Shown here: piece after piece, positions 30,260 to 39,940 of the stretch
How the letters are laid out: each line of letters opens with the position of its first letter
Numbering within the stretch: position 1 is the first letter of the stretch
Source: a virus
Length of the DNA stretch: 64,000 nt
IMG/VR virus record: IMGVR_UViG_3300046810_000322
Coordinates: 1 to 64,000 of that record
Direction: 5' to 3' (one strand)
The notes under the pieces: generated by a model
The model's database searches: none
The model's input: only the letters and a program-made list of their open reading frames with translations
What the model was told of the DNA's origin: nothing
Translations under genes and position numbers: made by a program

Positions 30260-30517
30260 ATGCCAAAGATTGTACGCCTCAACGACGCCAGTAATCATGG
30301 TGGAAAAATGATTCAAGCTACGGGTAACTTCACCGTCGATGGTGTTCAAGCCTGTGTCAATGGTGACCAACATAGCTGCCCTATTCCTGGGCACGGTGTA
30401 ACGTCAGTAACGTCTAGCTCTGCTAACACTGGTTCTGGCAAACCGATTATTCGTGTTGGCGATAAAGCTGGGTGTGGCGCCGCATTAAGTGCTGGCGGTT
30501 CCGCAACAACAACATAA
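30260..30517 (+). CDS. PAAR-domain spike tip protein (85 aa)
   Basis: A PAAR-family protein: starts MPKIVRLNDASNHGGKM, contains CPIPGHGVTSV in the middle and ends with the PIIRVGDKAGCG segment. Histidine and cysteine residues at NHGG, CPIPGHG and AGCG would bind the metal ion at the tip. It caps the beta-helical spike encoded just upstream; GGAGG lies directly before the ATG. Confidence 0.9.
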   Translation: MPKIVRLNDASNHGGKMIQATGNFTVDGVQACVNGDQHSCPIPGHGVTSVTSSSANTGSGKPIIRVGDKAGCGAALSAGGSATTT

Positions 30518-31796: not shown

Positions 31797-31895
31797 AGGA
31801 AAAATCCTTTAGTCTAGTGGGCGATGAGCCGAGATAATATAGTCGCTAGGACACTAACATAACATATTTCCCAGACCTTTTTAAGGGTGCTTTTC
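31797..31895. promoter_or_regulatory. divergent region before fibre module A
   Basis: 99 bases between divergent starts. GAGATAATATAG near 31833-31844 is A+T-rich and similar to TAATATAG strings in other divergent gaps (such as GATATAG near 12949). TAAGGG just before the fibre ATG is its ribosome-binding site. A promoter for the fibre operon is expected here. Confidence 0.3.
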
Positions 31896-33140
31896 ATGTC
31901 GAACGTTCTTACTAGCCCGCAATACCAGTTTGATCCGTCTGGTGTTAACCCAGCGAATCGAATCATTGGCGAACTGCAGCCTTTGACCGGTATGGGTGAT
32001 CGGGATTACTACCTCGTTGTCCCTGCAGCCACTCCGTTCTTTGCGGACTCGATCCAGCTCAGTTTCAAATCCTTGCAAGGGGACATCCGCCTCCTTGTTG
32101 AAGGAGTAGATTATTATTTATCTCACTGGTTCATGGGTGCATCCCGTGCAACAGCCCAGCCAGTATACGGTTCCATTACCCTGATGAACTCGGAGTTGCG
32201 TGGCACCTTGGTGCTTAACAATTACCAAACCATCGGCGGCGACTGGACCGTAGATACCAACACCATCGCAACGGTGCTGGCAGACCGCATTCATAACCCA
32301 CGTCGCATCGCGTGGGATCAGGTGGCCGGCTACCCCACTATCTTTCCTCCTGTACCGCACGAGTGGAACCTGGTGGACATGGTTGGTCAAAGTCAAATGC
32401 TGGCAGCCATTGATCGTATCGTTGACGCGATCCTGACGCAAGCGTCGTCGGCAATGATCGAACACATCAACGACATGTCCGGCCAGGCGCACGGCATTAC
32501 ACCAGCCAGCATCGGCGCCGTGTCCTATGCCCAATTAATTGCAGCTGTGAACGATGCGGTTGCTGATGCTGGTGGCACGACCGACGGCATCCAAGAAGGC
32601 GATAACAACAAGTTCTTTACTGAGGCGCGCGTACTCGCGACTAAGCTGGCTGGCTATGTGGTGAGCAACACGGTGGCCAACTTGGCCGATACCGACAGCA
32701 TCATGGTGGCACTCACCAAGCTGCAAGCGCAGGCTACAGCCAACGCCACTGAGATCGCCAAGAAGCTCAACACGGTTCGTCCGTATTTCACTGGTCTTGG
32801 TTCGCAGAACTTGGTGAAGCTGGTCATGACCACGTCGTTCTCCATCGACATCACCCAAGCAGAAGCTTTCCAAGTTCGGATTCAAGGTTCTGGTTCGATC
32901 GGTTTCAATACCGCGACCCTGGGCGACATGACCGACCGCGTGATTGCTTTCTCGGTGACCACGGTAAACGATGGTACAGCTAACGCCTATGCCATTGCGT
33001 GGCCGTCGAATGTGAAGTGGGTGGATGGCACGCCACCTCCACGTACCACCGCAGCCAATGCAAAAGACTACTGGTACTTCGTCTCGGAAGATGGCGGTGC
33101 CACGTACTCCGGTTCCCTGTCGAACGCAAACCCACGTTAA
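31896..33140 (+). CDS. tail fibre protein A (414 aa)
   Basis: The N-terminal half contains FFADSIQL, LLVEGVDYY and a segment with VPHEWNLVDMVGQSQMLAAI, typical of jumbo-phage fibre attachment domains. The middle has the FFTEARV motif common in fibres. The last 110 residues form a jelly-roll-like domain ending in GSLSNANPR. The protein at 37925-38998 shares N- and C-terminal domains (including VDYY, W-x-P-x-PH and GSLSN), so they are paralogues. The ATG at 31896 is preferred over an in-frame GTG nine bases earlier because TAAGGG is properly spaced. It precedes a repeat-rich partner gene by 17 bases. Confidence 0.75.
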   Translation: MSNVLTSPQYQFDPSGVNPANRIIGELQPLTGMGDRDYYLVVPAATPFFADSIQLSFKSLQGDIRLLVEGVDYYLSHWFMGASRATAQPVYGSITLMNSELRGTLVLNNYQTIGGDWTVDTNTIATVLADRIHNPRRIAWDQVAGYPTIFPPVPHEWNLVDMVGQSQMLAAIDRIVDAILTQASSAMIEHINDMSGQAHGITPASIGAVSYAQLIAAVNDAVADAGGTTDGIQEGDNNKFFTEARVLATKLAGYVVSNTVANLADTDSIMVALTKLQAQATANATEIAKKLNTVRPYFTGLGSQNLVKLVMTTSFSIDITQAEAFQVRIQGSGSIGFNTATLGDMTDRVIAFSVTTVNDGTANAYAIAWPSNVKWVDGTPPPRTTAANAKDYWYFVSEDGGATYSGSLSNANPR

Positions 33141-33157: not shown

Positions 33158-34978
33158 ATGTCTCGTGTAACTAAACTTCAGCGCCGAGAGAGAACCAATG
33201 CCCGTGCAATCCCAGGAACGTTGACGTTTAACGCTCCCGGGGTCGCTGTGCTCAAGTATGGTAAGTCACACATACTGGTCTCTGGTACTGGCGCGCCAGG
33301 CGGCGCAGCAACGCCGGGTAATGCAATCTATAACCCGGTTGTTCCTGGCACCGTCTCCGGCACCAATCCAAACACCCCAGGCAATGTCAGTGGGTACAAC
33401 CCTGTCATCCCTGGGAACGCGAATTACAATCCCAGCAATGGCGGTAACGCGAATTACAACCCGGATTCTGGCGGCAACTATGCCGGAACAAATCCAGGGA
33501 CGGGCGGTAACGTAGCGGGTTACAACCCCATCACTCCTGGTACCCAGTACACCAACACGGGGACGTACACCCCTGGTAATTATGTCCCTGCAAAATACAC
33601 AGCAGGCACGAGTTATCAAAATCCTGCCACGTTCACTCCGGGTAACTTGGTCCCGGCGTCGTACACTGCCGGAACGAGCTACCAGAATCCGGCGACGTTT
33701 ACTCCTGGTAATCCATACACGAACCCATCGACCTATACGCCTGGCAACACCAACGCCGGCTATGACGATGAAATGCACACGGGGTATGGTACTCCGTGTC
33801 CTGGTGGCTGGAGTTTTGCTGGGTATGACATCAATGAACTTGGTAAGCCGGAGCGGATCTGTGTGATCTACTACCCAGGTAACACCAACCCTGGAACTTA
33901 CACTGCTGGTAACAACGGCACCAACCCAGGCACGACGACTCCAGGTAATGGTGGATCTAACTCTGGCACATACACTCCGGCGTATTACAATCCAGGGACC
34001 ACAACACCTGGCAATGGAGGGTCCAATTCCAGTACGTACACCCCCGCCTACAGTAACCCTGGGTCTTATTCACCAGGGTCCACTGGTTACAATCCAGCAA
34101 CTGGCGGCAACCCCACCTACAATCCACCCGTAGCTGGCAACCCGTATTACAACCCGTATGTCCCAGGAAACATCTCTGGTTACAACCCAGGTAACCCTGG
34201 CAATGTGGCTGGTTACAATCCAGATAACGGGGGTAACGCGACATACAACCCAGTAATACCAGGAACGGCGAATTATAATTTACCAACCCCGGGAAATGCT
34301 GTGTATAACCCGACAGTCCCTGGGAATATCTCCGGTTACAATCCGCCGAGTGGTGGAAATCTGATCGGATACAACCCAGACTCGCCTGGGAACTATGCTG
34401 GTGTGAACCCGCCGGGCGGTCACACGGTGGCAGGATACAACCCACCTACTGGTGGAAATGAAGCCTATGCCAATGGTAGTGCAACGATTGTGGTGACAGG
34501 TCCTCCGGGTAACGCAGCTGCGTCACCAGAGTACTATACCTACACCACCTCGTCATTGTTTGCGCCCACCACAACGTATTACGTGGACAACGCCAATGGC
34601 AACACGTACTACGCGCAGTTCAATGCCGACGGCACGAACTACAACCCATCTCAGCCTGGTAGCGCGAACTACAATCCGGTAATTCCGGGTGAAGCTTATT
34701 ACAACCCAGGTAACCCAGGGAATGCTATTTACAGTCCGGCTGTTCCAGGTACTGCGAATTACAATCCTACGGTTCCGGCAGCTGCAGCGTATAACCCGCC
34801 GACAAGCGGCGCGCCATCAGCTCCCTTCACTGTGTTGGGCGTCACGTTCCCAGGTTCGACCTCTGGTACACCTGGAAGTTATGTGGCAGATCGTCTGGTC
34901 GAAGTACCTTACTCGGCCAACGGCGTAGCAATCCCGGTAGGACCTGGAGCACAAGTTGTTGTGAAACAGCAGTTCTAA
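33158..34978 (+). CDS. YNPxxPG-repeat fibre-associated protein A (606 aa)
   Basis: An N-terminal basic segment (RRERTNAR) is followed by about 520 residues built on a repeated unit of nine to eleven residues, roughly GYNPxxPGN or NYNPxxGGN, with about 20 YNP copies and many x-Pro-Gly triplets. A second repeat type, SYQNPATFTPGN, occupies the middle, and a Cys-containing segment (CPGGWSFAGYD) interrupts it. The C-terminal 55 residues form a conserved cap shared with the paralogue at 39014-39940. The composition suggests a rigid polyproline-II or polyglycine-II like rod used as adhesin or fibre stalk. A prolyl-hydroxylase-like gene lies 29 bases downstream. ATG at 33158 with AAGGTAGGG upstream. 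Confidence 0.75.
   Translation: MSRVTKLQRRERTNARAIPGTLTFNAPGVAVLKYGKSHILVSGTGAPGGAATPGNAIYNPVVPGTVSGTNPNTPGNVSGYNPVIPGNANYNPSNGGNANYNPDSGGNYAGTNPGTGGNVAGYNPITPGTQYTNTGTYTPGNYVPAKYTAGTSYQNPATFTPGNLVPASYTAGTSYQNPATFTPGNPYTNPSTYTPGNTNAGYDDEMHTGYGTPCPGGWSFAGYDINELGKPERICVIYYPGNTNPGTYTAGNNGTNPGTTTPGNGGSNSGTYTPAYYNPGTTTPGNGGSNSSTYTPAYSNPGSYSPGSTGYNPATGGNPTYNPPVAGNPYYNPYVPGNISGYNPGNPGNVAGYNPDNGGNATYNPVIPGTANYNLPTPGNAVYNPTVPGNISGYNPPSGGNLIGYNPDSPGNYAGVNPPGGHTVAGYNPPTGGNEAYANGSATIVVTGPPGNAAASPEYYTYTTSSLFAPTTTYYVDNANGNTYYAQFNADGTNYNPSQPGSANYNPVIPGEAYYNPGNPGNAIYSPAVPGTANYNPTVPAAAAYNPPTSGAPSAPFTVLGVTFPGSTSGTPGSYVADRLVEVPYSANGVAIPVGPGAQVVVKQQF
33310..34830 (+). repeat. degenerate tandem repeats coding YNPxxPG units
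   Basis: In-frame imperfect tandem repeats of about 27-33 bases coding for YNPxxPG/YNPxxGG units. Copies differ at many third positions, so selection acts on the protein. The part near 33590-33740 includes two nearly identical longer repeats of about 66 bases coding SYQNPATFTPGN. Confidence 0.8.
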
Positions 34979-35007
34979 TAAAAACTTTTCAACCAAGGAA
35001 AACAAGC

Positions 35008-35625
35008 ATGAACCAACCTCCTCGTTATGGTATCCCCCAGCTCGGCTGGCCATTGGTGTCGCACTGTGAATTCTTCGGCTGGTTTGATGCCAATCAGTGC
35101 AAAGACCTGCTGAGTTTGGGAGAACTGCTGGCATTCAAGCCAGGCGCGGTCGGTAACAACATGGTCGAGTCCGGTGTCCGCGACTCCAACGTGGCATGGA
35201 TCGACGACAACCCGAACGGTCCGAACCACCAGCTGCGGGTCTGGTTGATCAACCACTTCGCTGCGGCAATTGGTCGTGTCAATCGTGACCGGTTCCAAGT
35301 CGACCTGGATCACTTCCATCCGCCGCAATTCACCAAGTACGATCTGAACCAGCACTACAATTGGCACACTGACGCCGAAGAAGGCAAAGAAGCCGAGACC
35401 GTGCGTAAGTTGTCGGCAGTACTGATGCTGACTGGTCCAGAAGAATACGAAGGTGGCGAGCTGGAGCTGAACATCAACGGCAATCCGGAAAAGACGCTGA
35501 AGCTGAAGCCGCCTGCAGGTACGATCGTGTTCTTCAATGCAGCGATGCCGCATCGCGTCCTGCCAGTTACTGAAGGTACGCGTGCTTCGATCGTCGTCTG
35601 GGCCGAAGGTCCGAAGAACCGTTAA
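35008..35625 (+). CDS. prolyl 4-hydroxylase-like 2-oxoglutarate/Fe(II) dioxygenase (205 aa)
   Basis: A double-stranded beta-helix dioxygenase of the P4H/PKHD type. Iron ligands are H120 and D122 in YNWHTDA and H182 in MPHRVLPV; R192 in GTRASIVV, ten residues after the distal His, would bind 2-oxoglutarate. The segment YEGGELEL between them is typical of the family. These enzymes hydroxylate prolines, often in x-Pro-Gly contexts, using oxygen and 2-oxoglutarate. The gene is immediately downstream of a protein with dozens of x-Pro-Gly triplets, which makes that protein the obvious candidate substrate (inference). ATG with CCAAGGAA upstream. Related oxygenases are known in several large phages. 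Confidence 0.85.
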   Translation: MNQPPRYGIPQLGWPLVSHCEFFGWFDANQCKDLLSLGELLAFKPGAVGNNMVESGVRDSNVAWIDDNPNGPNHQLRVWLINHFAAAIGRVNRDRFQVDLDHFHPPQFTKYDLNQHYNWHTDAEEGKEAETVRKLSAVLMLTGPEEYEGGELELNINGNPEKTLKLKPPAGTIVFFNAAMPHRVLPVTEGTRASIVVWAEGPKNR

Positions 35626-35636
35626 GGGAGCGTTTC

Positions 35637-36563
35637 ATGTTTGTGTTTGATAAATTAGCTCAATTTTTATTGACCGAAGAACGCATGGGTCGAATGGGCT
35701 TGCGGCATGAAACGCAAGAAGATCTCGATGCACTGCTGCCAGTCATCGAGTTCCTGTGCGAACCGCAGCATCGTCTGGTCATGCGTGAACCGGAACCAGC
35801 GATGAAGAACATCGCTGACTGGTGGAAGAAGATCCCAGCGAATCTGCCGAACGAACCTCGTACTCCACGCGACCACTTCGGCATGCCGGTCATGACTGCC
35901 AAGAAGTGCATCCCACTGCTAGACGGCATGGCTTTGGGTTACACCATGGTCACCGCTGTTGACATCCATGTGCGTACTGACCGTGATGGTAAGTTCATGG
36001 ACATCAAGTGCGGTCCGACCTGGAACGGGGCATCGACCCATGACATCATCCAGCTGGGTGAACGAACCTCGCCGACCTATCCGGGTCCTGCGATTAAGTT
36101 CCATAACCCGTGGGTGATCAAGACCCGACCTGGTTACTCGACGCTGTTTGTGCCGCCGCTGAACCATGTGGAAGAGAAACGCTTCCAGTGCTTGGCTGCT
36201 GTGGTCGATACCGACACTTACCCGAAGCAGGTGAACTTCCCTGCTATCTGGTTTGCTAAAGGTCACGACGGTCTGATACCGGCAGGTACTCCACTGGTCA
36301 CCGCCATTCCATTCAAACGGAGTGATGTGCCTAAGGAGCTGCTGATCCGTACCATGCATGAGCGCGAGCGTCAGCACATCGCCATGTTGGAACGTGTACA
36401 GGGAGCGCGCTCCCATGTATACACGGACGAGCTGCGGGAAGACCGTAAGAAGTTCGCAGAGGCGAAATGTCCTATGGGTCACCATGACACCACAGCGCTG
36501 CCCGCCAACGAACCCATCACCATCGGCACCTCTGGCGTCTTGGAAATCAAAGACCTCACGTAA
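35637..36563 (+). CDS. unknown beta-rich protein, paralogue 1 of the fibre cassette (308 aa)
   Basis: The pattern of the core (IKFHNPWVIKTRPGYSTLF, VVDTDTYP, VNFPAIWF, IPAGTPLVTAIPFKR) recurs in the next protein (PIPYGMYMEPGHSA, VYPGTVDYDD, ITAGTPLLQVLPFKR), so the two are divergent paralogues. The alternation of strands and turns suggests a cupin-like barrel and recalls the DUF6065 family (from memory, not verified). It has H and D residues but no proven metal motif. Position between the hydroxylase and the fibre chaperone suggests involvement in fibre synthesis or modification. Confidence 0.55.
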   Translation: MFVFDKLAQFLLTEERMGRMGLRHETQEDLDALLPVIEFLCEPQHRLVMREPEPAMKNIADWWKKIPANLPNEPRTPRDHFGMPVMTAKKCIPLLDGMALGYTMVTAVDIHVRTDRDGKFMDIKCGPTWNGASTHDIIQLGERTSPTYPGPAIKFHNPWVIKTRPGYSTLFVPPLNHVEEKRFQCLAAVVDTDTYPKQVNFPAIWFAKGHDGLIPAGTPLVTAIPFKRSDVPKELLIRTMHERERQHIAMLERVQGARSHVYTDELREDRKKFAEAKCPMGHHDTTALPANEPITIGTSGVLEIKDLT

Positions 36564-36577
36564 CAGGAAGAGAAAAG

Positions 36578-37363
36578 ATGATTTATAAGCTGATTAAATT
36601 CCTGACGTGGTTGCAGGCCCGGGTTGATCGAGTGACGTGCAACTCGATCATTCACTTCGCTTGTGTTTACGGCGGGTACTACGTTTCCAATCCAGCTGAA
36701 CCAGCTGGCAAGGTCAAGCCTGATTGGCTGCTCGACATGATCGCCAAGACCAAGGAAAAGCAAGCCCAAGGTCAGAAGAAGGCGTCAGTTCCGTTCATCG
36801 GTTGTCCAGGTATGCACGACTATGCGCAAGAAGGTTACATCATCCGTGCGCATACGGACATCCATATCAAAGCCAACCGCGCTGGCACAGTGATCTCGAT
36901 GCCGCATCTGGCTGAAGGTATGCTGCAATTCGCCCAGATGAACATGGAAGTCGTCGATGGTATGGCGCCCTTCCATCCCGATGTGGCGAAACAGGTCTTC
37001 AAGATCCCCATCCCGTACGGCATGTACATGGAGCCTGGGCATTCAGCACACCTGATGCCTGCGTTGATGCATTCGCCGTTCCTCGACAAGCTGTGGGTTT
37101 ACCCCGGCACCGTCGACTACGATGACTTCCATGTCATGAACTTCATCTTCAGCGCGATCAAGGAATGCGAGTTTACCATTACCGCCGGTACACCGCTCCT
37201 GCAAGTGCTGCCATTTAAACGTGTGGCGTATCATGCGATCTCTGGCCCAGCAACGCAGTTGCAGTCTGACCAGTCGCGCTTTGGCTTCCCATCGAGGCAG
37301 AAGGCGTACTATCGCAAGATGTTCCACAAAAAGAAACTCTACACCAGCGAGGCTGTCAAATGA
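36578..37363 (+). CDS. unknown beta-rich protein, paralogue 2 of the fibre cassette (261 aa)
   Basis: Shares the AGTPLLQVLPFKR core and an upstream TVDYDDFH region with the protein encoded just before it (VVDTDTYP, AGTPLVTAIPFKR). No signal peptide; a mildly hydrophobic N-terminus (FACVYGGYYVS). Its TGA overlaps the ATG of the next gene, so the cassette is translationally coupled. Function unknown; possibly an accessory enzyme or scaffold acting with the hydroxylase. Confidence 0.55.
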   Translation: MIYKLIKFLTWLQARVDRVTCNSIIHFACVYGGYYVSNPAEPAGKVKPDWLLDMIAKTKEKQAQGQKKASVPFIGCPGMHDYAQEGYIIRAHTDIHIKANRAGTVISMPHLAEGMLQFAQMNMEVVDGMAPFHPDVAKQVFKIPIPYGMYMEPGHSAHLMPALMHSPFLDKLWVYPGTVDYDDFHVMNFIFSAIKECEFTITAGTPLLQVLPFKRVAYHAISGPATQLQSDQSRFGFPSRQKAYYRKMFHKKKLYTSEAVK

Positions 37364-37812
37364 GTGTAAAAGGTATCGTGTATCTGGTTAACCGGGTTAC
37401 ACGTCACATCAACTTGGCCGGCGAAGTGCCGGCTGTTTACGCAAACATCACTGGTCTGGCTGACGCCGACTATTCGGTGCTGCGTGATCTGGGCGCCACC
37501 TTCGGCGAAGACTACGCCAACCTGGGCTTCTTGACCGAAGCTGATGCGCTGGAAGCCGGTGTTCCACAAGCCGACATCGACCGCATGAAGAAAGCGGCCT
37601 GCTCGATCAAGTGGAACACCCTGGAACAGGAACGCAGCGACCTGATCCAAGACCAACGCTGGCGCATCGATCGCCACAACGATCAAGTTGCCATGGGCAT
37701 TGAGCTGTCGGAAGATATCGCTCCGGTCTACAAGTACGTTCAGGACATCCGTGACCTGACGCAGACCCAGCTGGACCCGTTTAACATCGTATGGCCGGAA
37801 ATCCCAGCCTGA
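37360..37812 (+). CDS. tail-fibre assembly chaperone (150 aa)
   Basis: The C-terminal half has the pattern of phage tail-fibre assembly proteins: LIQDQRWRIDRHNDQ, then YKYVQDIRDLTQTQ and the ending PFNIVWPEIP. Such chaperones bind fibre tips and are needed for folding or trimerisation. The ATG overlaps the TGA of the previous gene. The location between two fibre modules supports the call. Confidence 0.7.
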   Translation: MSVKGIVYLVNRVTRHINLAGEVPAVYANITGLADADYSVLRDLGATFGEDYANLGFLTEADALEAGVPQADIDRMKKAACSIKWNTLEQERSDLIQDQRWRIDRHNDQVAMGIELSEDIAPVYKYVQDIRDLTQTQLDPFNIVWPEIPA

Positions 37813-37844: not shown

Positions 37845-37876
37845 GGCTAGAGCGTTAACTCGCTCTAGCCTTTATG
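37845..37876 (+). terminator. hairpin terminator with TTTATGC tail
   Basis: A perfect 10-bp stem, GGCTAGAGCG at 37845-37854 and CGCTCTAGCC at 37861-37870, followed by TTTATGCAAC. It divides fibre module A and its enzymes from fibre module B on the same strand, so the two modules may be separately regulated. Confidence 0.65.
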
Positions 37877-37924
37877 CAACCTTCTGATGAATATTTTTTT
37901 ATCAGTAGCGACGGAGAACAAAAG

Positions 37925-38998
37925 ATGTCTTTAGTCCCAGTCAAGTATCCGCTCGACCTCACGGGTACGGCGGTCACCAACAAAGTTGCTGATGAAGCCC
38001 ATCAGCTGAACAATTCCATTTACCGGGTGTTCGTTCCGAAGTCCGGCGCGTTCTTCACGGATTCAGTTGCTGTGCGCGATGCCGCAACGAACCGTGTTCT
38101 GGTAAAGGGTGTGGATTACTATCCAGCTGTCCTGTACCGTCAACCGACACGTCAGACCGGCAAGGAAGTTCACCAGATCATCGTCATCGTCGATCGCACC
38201 TGCGGCGCTAACATCCTGTTCGATGCACAGATCCTCGGCGGCGAGTACAGCTACAGCTACGACGCTATCGTTCAGATGGTGCAAAACCTTGACTTGGACA
38301 ATCGTCCAGTTGAGTTCGAAGCTATCATCGGTAAACCGACCAGCTGGAATCCAACACCGCACTTGCATGACATCGGCGACGTGTACGGTTTTGAATACCA
38401 AGTCGCTGCACTGGAGCGTGTGCGTCAAGCGATCCTGCTGGGTTCTGGCGCATCCACGAAGGCGATCTACGACTACCTGAAGAATCAGATCGTCGAGATC
38501 AACAACACCATCGACGTTATCCGGAACAACCAAAGCACACCTGCGTCGGTCATCGACGCGCTGGGCTTTACGCCGGTTGATAAAGCTGGCGATACCTTCA
38601 GCGGTCCGATGACCTTTAACCAAGGCATCAGCAACCAAGGGTTCTACAAAGAAAAGATCAAGCGGATCACCGCAACGTCCACGACGACCCCGCTCGATCT
38701 GAGCCTGGCCGGCATCTTCTCTGTGACTCTGGCGTCGTCCACGACGTTCAGCTTCAGTGTCGCCAACGTGCCTGCTATCGGCGCCGATGAATCCATCAGT
38801 TTCACGCTGATCATCAAGAACGACGGGACTGCTGGCCGTGCTGTAGCGTTCGGTAACAACGTTCGTTGGGCCGACAAAGTTATTCCGCCTCGCTCCACCG
38901 GGATCAACGCGCAAGACGAGTTCTACTTCAGCTCGTTCGACGGCGGCGTGACTTGGACTGGTTCCCTGTCGAACCAAAACGTGGGTCAGGCAGCATAA
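37925..38998 (+). CDS. tail fibre protein B (357 aa), paralogue of fibre A
   Basis: N-terminal fibre-attachment region (FFTDSVAV, VLVKGVDYY, a W-x-P-x-PHLHDIGDVYG segment) and C-terminal jelly-roll-like domain ending in WTGSLSNQN match the protein at 31896-33140. The linker carries ALGFTPVDKAGDTFSGPM, a motif common in tail fibres. An upstream ATG at 37874 is in frame but has no ribosome-binding site; the ATG at 37925 has GGAG and matches the paralogue's start. It is followed 15 bases later by the second repeat protein. Confidence 0.7.
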   Translation: MSLVPVKYPLDLTGTAVTNKVADEAHQLNNSIYRVFVPKSGAFFTDSVAVRDAATNRVLVKGVDYYPAVLYRQPTRQTGKEVHQIIVIVDRTCGANILFDAQILGGEYSYSYDAIVQMVQNLDLDNRPVEFEAIIGKPTSWNPTPHLHDIGDVYGFEYQVAALERVRQAILLGSGASTKAIYDYLKNQIVEINNTIDVIRNNQSTPASVIDALGFTPVDKAGDTFSGPMTFNQGISNQGFYKEKIKRITATSTTTPLDLSLAGIFSVTLASSTTFSFSVANVPAIGADESISFTLIIKNDGTAGRAVAFGNNVRWADKVIPPRSTGINAQDEFYFSSFDGGVTWTGSLSNQNVGQAA

Positions 38999-39013: not shown

Positions 39014-39940
39014 ATGACGACATTAGCTGCTAAAAAGCGGCGTGAGCGAACTAATACGGGGCGGAAGACCCCGTCCCAGACCTTTAACCCGCCGGGCGGT
39101 ATCTATCGTCCGGTGTTTGGTAAAGCAATCATCTTCATCTCTGGGCACGGTCAGCCGGGTAACGCACCAGCTAACCCCAGCGTCGCATACTACAACCCCA
39201 ACACGGGTGGTAATGTCGCTGGGTACAACGCCACCATTCCGGGTAACATTAGCGGGTATAACCCACCTCAGCCAGGTAATTATGCTGGCACGTATGAACC
39301 AGGCGGCGGTAACCTAGCTGGTTACAATCCGTCCACTGGTGGCAACCTGTCAGGATACAACCCAACGGTTCCTGGTGCGGCTGCCTACAACCCACCACAG
39401 CCAGGACAAATCGTCTATACGGAATTTGGTGGTCCGAATCCGCCAGCGCCGACGACGTATGAGTCTGCCTACTTCACCATATCGCCATTCTCGTTCTACA
39501 ACAACAGTAACGGGAATTACGGGAACGTGAATGTAGATCGACCAAGTGGCTTCTATGTATCAGGGAACCGGTACTACACCCCTGGTACTGGCGGTAACGC
39601 GAATTACAACCCTGGCGTGCCTGGCAATGCCAACTACAATCCGTACAACGAAGGGTATGATTACTACAACCCGACGCAACCTGGCAGTGCGAACTACAAC
39701 CCAGGGAGCGGTGGCACGGCAAACTACAACCCGGTAGTACCTGGCAATGCGGTGTACAACAACTACATTGCCGGTGTAGCTGGTTCGCCATTCAATGCCT
39801 TGGGTGTGGCTTTCCCAGGGGGTGCGATTGGTACTCCAGCCCCAACAATTGGCCGCACCATGGTGGAAGTAGCCTATACTGCCAGCGGCGTTCCTATCAC
39901 CATGCCACCAGCTTCGGTGGTCGTAATCGAGGAAACTTAA
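39014..39940 (+). CDS. YNPxxPG-repeat fibre-associated protein B (308 aa)
   Basis: A shorter paralogue of the 606-residue repeat protein. Basic start with KKRRERTNTGRK, then ten YNP units (GYNPxxPGN, NYNPxxPGS and similar) split by a 60-residue insert rich in Tyr/Asn/Ser, and a C-terminal cap (ALGVAFPGG, MVEVAYTASGVPIT) matching the other protein. It probably forms a shorter rod. The different lengths of the two suggest repeat number evolves by unequal exchange. Confidence 0.75.
   Translation: MTTLAAKKRRERTNTGRKTPSQTFNPPGGIYRPVFGKAIIFISGHGQPGNAPANPSVAYYNPNTGGNVAGYNATIPGNISGYNPPQPGNYAGTYEPGGGNLAGYNPSTGGNLSGYNPTVPGAAAYNPPQPGQIVYTEFGGPNPPAPTTYESAYFTISPFSFYNNSNGNYGNVNVDRPSGFYVSGNRYYTPGTGGNANYNPGVPGNANYNPYNEGYDYYNPTQPGSANYNPGSGGTANYNPVVPGNAVYNNYIAGVAGSPFNALGVAFPGGAIGTPAPTIGRTMVEVAYTASGVPITMPPASVVVIEET
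39170..39760 (+). repeat. degenerate tandem repeats coding YNPxxPG units (module B)
   Basis: In-frame imperfect repeats of about 27-33 bases coding YNPxxPG/YNPxxGG units, the same family as at 33310-34830. A non-repetitive insert at about 39410-39580 divides the array. Confidence 0.75.

Follow-up and report, generated by a model that had tools for sequence, protein, structure and literature searches.

Numerous uncultivated phages, very large ones among them, have the gene for a collagen-style proline-hydroxylating enzyme in a fixed place beside the gene for a Pro-Gly repeat tail protein, an arrangement which suggests that they modify their own tail fibres as animals modify collagen. The reading we prefer, with a probability of roughly two in three, is that this cassette is a fibre-modification module and that its oxygenase hydroxylates prolines of the adjacent repeat protein. 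With Fe(II), 2-oxoglutarate (2OG) and O2, the enzyme would produce hydroxylated prolines in the repeat protein encoded upstream, most likely at those before glycine (-x-Pro-Gly-), and a paralogue of the repeat protein would probably be modified too. The repeat protein may serve a tail fibre or baseplate protein as an accessory, and hydroxyproline would stabilise or rigidify its repeat rod. In a sub-lineage with a GT60 gene, GlcNAc may be added to the hydroxyproline, as in the Skp1 pathway, and in a sister enzyme lineage the same logic would apply to a true collagen-like protein.

The repeat proteins and the oxygenase

The window, meaning the whole stretch of DNA analysed, comprises bases 1-64000 of a linear virus record of 71,267 bases. 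L-numbers below denote loci and G-numbers denote records, all from IMG/VR. The coordinates and strands of the repeat and enzyme reading frames, and the 29-base gap between them, are exactly those of the preliminary description. The features of the window are as follows.

31887..33140, + strand: tail structural protein (phrog_13857 / phrog_2163-like), directly 5′ of the repeat protein 1 gene
33158..34978, + strand: repeat protein 1, 606 aa, with N-terminal domain, 21 YNP-type units and C-terminal domain; proposed hydroxylation substrate
33158..33301, + strand: N-terminal domain conserved across the repeat family, residues ~1-48, RRERTN..TFNAPG..YGK..VSG.G.PG (HMM E 9.9e-25; boundary approximate)
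34823..34975, + strand: C-terminal domain conserved across the repeat family, residues ~556-606, LGVTFPG...YSANGV.IPVGPGAQVVV (HMM E 6.1e-25; boundary approximate)
35008..35625, + strand: P4H/PHD-type 2OG-Fe(II) dioxygenase of 205 aa, the proposed hydroxylase of repeat-protein prolines
35365..35373, + strand: iron ligands H120-x-D122, invariant in 24 paired enzymes
35551..35583, + strand: stretch from the iron ligand H182 to the 2OG-binding Arg R192, both unchanged across the 24 paired enzymes
35637..36563, + strand: DUF6065 / phrog_7084 protein A, cassette gene +1, with a weak dUTPase-like fold
36578..37363, + strand: DUF6065 / phrog_7084 protein B, cassette gene +2
37360..37812, + strand: tail fibre assembly chaperone-like protein (Phage_tail_APC, under the Pfam cut-off)
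37874..38998, + strand: another tail structural protein (phrog_2163), whose gene ends 15 bases before that of repeat protein 2
39014..39940, + strand: repeat protein 2, 308 aa, repeat family (both domain models match; 10 YNP units); possible second substrate

Both repeat genes of the window start 15-17 bases after a tail gene, as if each tail gene and repeat gene formed one unit, and from these neighbours we infer that the repeat protein is a putative tail-associated component of the virion, the adhesin of the preliminary description being a candidate role. Further upstream, at 30260-30517, a PAAR spike-tip protein is encoded behind a baseplate assembly protein gene (phrog_3216), which points to a contractile-tailed phage.

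Repeat protein 1 contains 21 YNP and 11 exact YNPxxPG units, the latter against a mean of 0.03 and a maximum of 2 in 2000 shuffled versions of the protein. The "about twenty YNPxxPG units" initially reported therefore hold for a looser motif ([YF]NPxxxG, 19 units) and not for the exact one. The repeat unit is 10-11 residues long (YNPxxPGN); across the family Pro makes up 15% of residues and 42% of Gly is preceded by Pro. The window repeat protein is not collagen-like, being absent from the reading frames with at least 25 G-X-Y triplets. YNPVVPGNANYNP is a candidate substrate peptide of the predicted hydroxylase. Models built for the N- and C-terminal domains, which define the family irrespective of repeat type, matched both window proteins at E < 1e-20, so the second repeat protein, first proposed as a further substrate, is a true homologue. 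The repeat proteins make up a family that has no name, and its most conserved parts are the N- and C-terminal domains. Neither window protein had a match in Pfam, PHROGs or NCBIfam, and repeat protein 1 had none in the GenBank phage set. The consensus of the family ends found nothing better than E 0.2 among GenBank phages, the weak match being Podoviridae ctzlq274, with no annotated oxygenase within the stretch examined; no cultured phage carrying the repeat protein was found in that set. Several jumbo-sized phage records (G008 with L014, L019, L029 and L030; G004, G006, G011, G016) have more than one repeat-family gene and one PF13640 match each.

The window enzyme belongs to PF13640 (E 1.3e-18; 68.2 bits against a curated cut-off of 27) and matches the phrog_61 2OG-Fe(II) oxygenases at E 1.3e-37. 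It has the HxD...H iron triad and the basic 2OG-binding residue, and H120, D122, H182 and R192 are unchanged in all 24 enzymes paired with a repeat gene (20 clusters at 90% identity), relatives which share only 33-63% identity with it. The original assignment as a P4H-type dioxygenase with a complete active site is borne out. The solved structures closest to it by sequence are those of PKHD-type hydroxylases (3dkq, PiuC). An AlphaFold2 model built on A2, the alignment of paired enzymes that also served for the locus search, reached pLDDT 89. Its top Foldseek matches in the PDB were 4iw3 and 4j25 (Pseudomonas putida prolyl hydroxylase with EF-Tu), 6f0w, PHD2, 5c5t (PBCV-1 vCPH) and an algal P4H; less-characterised PiuC/YbiX-type oxygenases (3dkq, PiuC) were also among the fold matches. 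The modelled fold is closest mostly to peptidyl-prolyl hydroxylases. The usual reading of phage phrog_61 oxygenases is as auxiliary metabolic genes, and the family is filed as moron/AMG; the pairing described here offers one of its lineages a concrete candidate substrate. A structural resemblance of phrog_61 proteins to human EGLN3 has been noted (PMC12774648).

Co-occurrence of enzyme and repeat genes

The co-occurrence search proposed in the preliminary description was carried out from both sides. Starting from the repeats, PGNxxYNPxxPG was back-translated to DNA as a search pattern and matched 37 stretches in 24 IMG/VR phage records of 11.7-322.6 kb. A PF13640 gene was present in 23 of the 24 records, each time on the same strand as a repeat gene and immediately 3′ of it. 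The reversed pattern gave no match, and 257 Gb of cellular genomes gave 15 single matches, with no reading frame containing more than one unit. Since a baseplate gene tried as a neutral sampling marker had no relatives, 28 viral contigs drawn by random 15-mer were used instead, and PF13640 was found in 0 of 28; because this control set has fewer total bases than the test set, the claim of co-occurrence rests on adjacency rather than presence. The one exception, G018, is an 85-kb record in which two repeat genes occur but the enzyme and DUF6065 are both absent; it may be a fragment. Near-identical contigs were considered as the source of the association and rejected, as clustering at 90% identity leaves 20 groups among the 24 enzymes.

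From the enzyme side, a search with A2 returned 80 loci. Those nearest the query (L073-L094) all have a repeat-family member as the immediate upstream gene if their sequence reaches that far. A maximum-likelihood tree of 68 distinct enzymes puts the 30 repeat-adjacent ones and that of L095 into one clade with support 98/96, and the repeat-adjacency label changes twice on the tree, compared with a mean of 22 when shuffled. L095, the sole clade member that lacks an adjacent repeat gene (30/31 adjacent), has an apparent repeat-protein C-terminal end ~1.4 kb upstream with two genes intervening. A sulfotransferase-like reading frame (FNPKTGGTSIYNTY) lies at ~1860-2550 of L095, between the tail region and the oxygenase. 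Homologous phages that regularly carry one partner alone were seen from neither direction, G018 and L095 being the exceptions.

Divergent repeats keep the enzyme as well: TFNIVPGNATG and NFNAPTNGPQ in L080/L089, NYNVAYP in L084, TNPTTYPYA in L092 and sparse repeats in L076, of which L084, L092 and L076 retain the pair despite few PG units. An association due solely to x-Pro-Gly motifs was rejected on the ground of these atypical repeats, which indicate that x-Pro-Gly is not the sole possible recognition rule. The enzyme-substrate pairing originally put forward is favoured by its conservation in both directions, the predicted prolyl-hydroxylase fold, the GT60 neighbour and the Y-position prolines of sister cassettes; strict x-Pro-Gly targeting, as L084 and L092 illustrate, is not general.

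The cyanophage-type oxygenases of IMG/VR fall in separate clades of the enzyme tree. Nine of them (L101, L103, L104, L106, L109, L115, L133, L147, L151) lie directly downstream of fibre proteins with 32-34% Gly, possibly a second enzyme-fibre pairing, one without frequent Pro-Gly.

Cassette neighbours and sister cassettes

Clustering of neighbour genes in 23 loci showed that the genes keep one order, in which a tail structural protein is followed by the repeat protein (-1), the oxygenase (0) and the DUF6065 paralogues (+1, +2). A phrog_2163-like tail gene occurs in 17 of the 23 loci, usually at -2, the position taken by relatives of 31887..33140 in 16/23 cassettes. DUF6065 paralogues occupy +1 in 22/23 loci and +2 in 23/23, and a gene of 316-361 aa follows at +3 in 15/23. 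DUF6065 is linked to the enzyme as tightly as the repeat protein is, and could therefore be the real partner. Its predicted fold weakly matches dUTPase-like (beta-clip) proteins, a sequence search of the PDB gave no match, and no papers on DUF6065 were found in the open-access literature. Homologues are present in haloarchaeal tailed viruses, e.g. HF1 and HSTV-2, with no oxygenase annotated within 14.7-kb stretches.

The +3 gene of L092 belongs to PF11397 (CAZy GT60; E 2e-23, 83.9 bits against a cut-off of 21), and a DSH motif is invariant in 14 +3-gene sequences. PF11397 was found in 10 of 34 records tested, in none of 28 random contigs and in none of the named control genomes; it was not found in the window's own 71-kb record, which may be a fragment, and no GT60 was found in GenBank phages.

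L092:12001-12957, and the +3 genes of L027, L039, L040, L075, L078-L084, L086-L091 and L095: GT60 (PF11397-like) genes beside the hydroxylase cassette

GT60 covers both hydroxyproline and mucin-type (Ser/Thr) transferases: it includes the UDP-GlcNAc:hydroxyproline transferase of Skp1 (PMC6939170) and a Trypanosoma cruzi polypeptide GlcNAc-transferase (PMC8724618). A GT60 neighbour in relatives strengthens the case for the predicted enzyme-substrate pairing.

The nearest enzymes outside the clade are those of L150 and L081 and the second enzyme of L084. Here the gene order is a protein with 31-39% Gly, a DUF6065 gene and the oxygenase, and the Gly-rich proteins of L084 and L150 start with a recognisable version of the repeat-family N-terminal domain.

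L084:3982-7719, L150:4566-8063 and L289-L293: sister cassettes (G-X-Y collagen-like protein with Y-position Pro, DUF6065, P4H-type oxygenase)
L084:8486-9073: sister enzyme of L084

The sister partners (L084, L150, L289-L293) are collagen-like, with runs of up to 87 G-X-Y triplets. In collagen, Y is the position hydroxylated by P4H. A further scan with the sister enzymes yielded 11 distinct upstream collagen-like reading frames with Pro X:Y = 52:358, and 5 other collagen-like reading frames at the same loci with Pro X:Y = 136:0; Y exceeds X in 11/11 of the former and is zero in 5/5 of the latter, residue counts within a protein being non-independent and the reading frames partly related. Phage and bacterial collagens have been reported to show no Y-position Pro preference (PMC3368898), a rule that the sister cassettes break beside a P4H-type gene, and phage and bacterial collagen-like proteins to contain no hydroxyproline (PMC5749712). 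The Y-position bias is the best indirect sign of possible -x-Pro-Gly- hydroxylation in phage fibres, and it concerns the sister enzymes rather than that of the window. The collagen-like proteins of sister cassettes are candidate hydroxylated phage collagens.

Alternative readings and known systems

Even with the repeat protein as substrate, the enzyme might mainly target the Asn or Pro of YNP/FN, or a residue of an end domain, instead of the PG proline. Repeats without frequent PG keep the pair and share YN/FN (NYNVAYP, TNPTTYPYA, NFNAPTNGPQ), and the best-conserved parts of the protein are its two end domains. We nonetheless judge a non-PG target unlikely, given fold matches that are mostly to peptidyl-prolyl hydroxylases, the Y-position Pro bias of the sister clade, and the presence of a GT60 hydroxyproline/Thr GlcNAc-transferase in the cassette of a sub-lineage. 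It is rather improbable that the enzyme modifies DUF6065 or another tail protein and that the repeat gene is a mere cassette neighbour. DUF6065 paralogues do stand behind the enzyme at 22-23 of the 23 loci, and in the sister clade (L150, L081, L084) DUF6065-oxygenase pairs exist without the YNP family; but there the missing family is replaced by a collagen-like Pro-Gly protein with Y-position Pro, and the haloarchaeal viruses carry DUF6065 with no annotated oxygenase in the stretches mentioned above.

A gene of auxiliary metabolism or host takeover that happens to lie in the tail region, acting in host EF-Tu hydroxylation or 2-oxoglutarate control, would accord with the filing of phrog_61, with an EF-Tu prolyl hydroxylase as the closest fold, and with the roles proposed for cyanophage homologues in modulating 2OG/nitrogen metabolism (PMC3037559) or, alternatively, in DNA repair (PMC2984593). 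However, the enzyme lies directly behind the repeat gene in 30 of 31 divergent clade members, a fixed position not expected of a free-standing AMG, and the cyanophage-type enzymes occupy a separate part of the tree; we regard this reading, too, as rather improbable. Co-inheritance of a tail cassette with no functional coupling is barely credible: although the evidence is all genomic and other tail genes persist too (the phrog_2163-like gene in 17/23 loci), enzyme-repeat adjacency is steadier than theirs, spans relatives of 33-63% identity and records of 12-322 kb, and accompanies an intact active site.

Hydroxylation of the adjacent repeat protein is our preferred reading. A broader proposal, a fibre maturation system of tailed phages in which the cassette gives tail repeat rods hydroxyproline (GlcNAc-hydroxyproline in some lineages) and the sister lineage makes a true hydroxylated collagen, stands at about even odds. 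If true, O2-dependent fibre maturation would link infectivity to the oxygen, iron and 2OG state of the host, and bacterial viruses would provide compact enzymes for hydroxylated repeat or collagen materials. In line with the initial statement that no enzyme-substrate pair of this form is known to have been described, open-access sources yielded no report in which a phage oxygenase is matched with a fibre as its substrate; work in subscription journals may be missed.

Among known systems, PiuC/YbiX (PKHD-type) and the P. putida EF-Tu prolyl hydroxylase are closest in sequence (3dkq, PiuC) and fold (4iw3, 4j25), but they are bacterial cellular enzymes with other substrates and no repeat-protein linkage. 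The 2OG-Fe(II) oxygenases of T4-like cyanophages and pelagiphages share phrog_61 and 30-36% identity with the window enzyme, whereas their IMG/VR relatives form separate clades, several adjoining ~33% Gly fibres and not the repeat family. Bacillus anthracis P4H, which acts on collagen-like peptides (PMC8968730), offers with BclA-type proteins a prokaryotic P4H and a collagen-like substrate; it is cellular, with no fixed adjacent pair in that report. The viral collagen prolyl hydroxylase of PBCV-1 (vCPH, 5c5t) and mimivirus provide a viral P4H fold (PBCV-1) or collagen-modifying enzymes (mimivirus) together with candidate viral repeat substrates. Their hosts, in contrast, are eukaryotic, a fixed enzyme-substrate gene pair was not found described for them in the open-access literature, and a review cites the finding that hydroxyproline is absent from PBCV-1 particles (PMC7019647). 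The Skp1 pathway of Dictyostelium and Toxoplasma (PhyA P4H and Gnt1, GT60) likewise combines a P4H-type enzyme with a GT60-family GlcNAc-transferase; its substrate is a single Pro of a ubiquitin-ligase subunit, whereas the phage transferase occurs in a sub-lineage only and has a putative acceptor. Compared with metazoan collagen P4H, the phage enzyme is small and single-domain, has neither PDI subunit nor ER, and is of predicted activity, and the window partner is a 10-11-residue YNPxxPGN repeat rather than G-X-Y. What the phage cassettes have in common with the metazoan enzyme and its collagen is a 2OG-Fe(II) P4H-type enzyme, -x-Pro-Gly- repeats and, in the sister partners, proline at the Y position.
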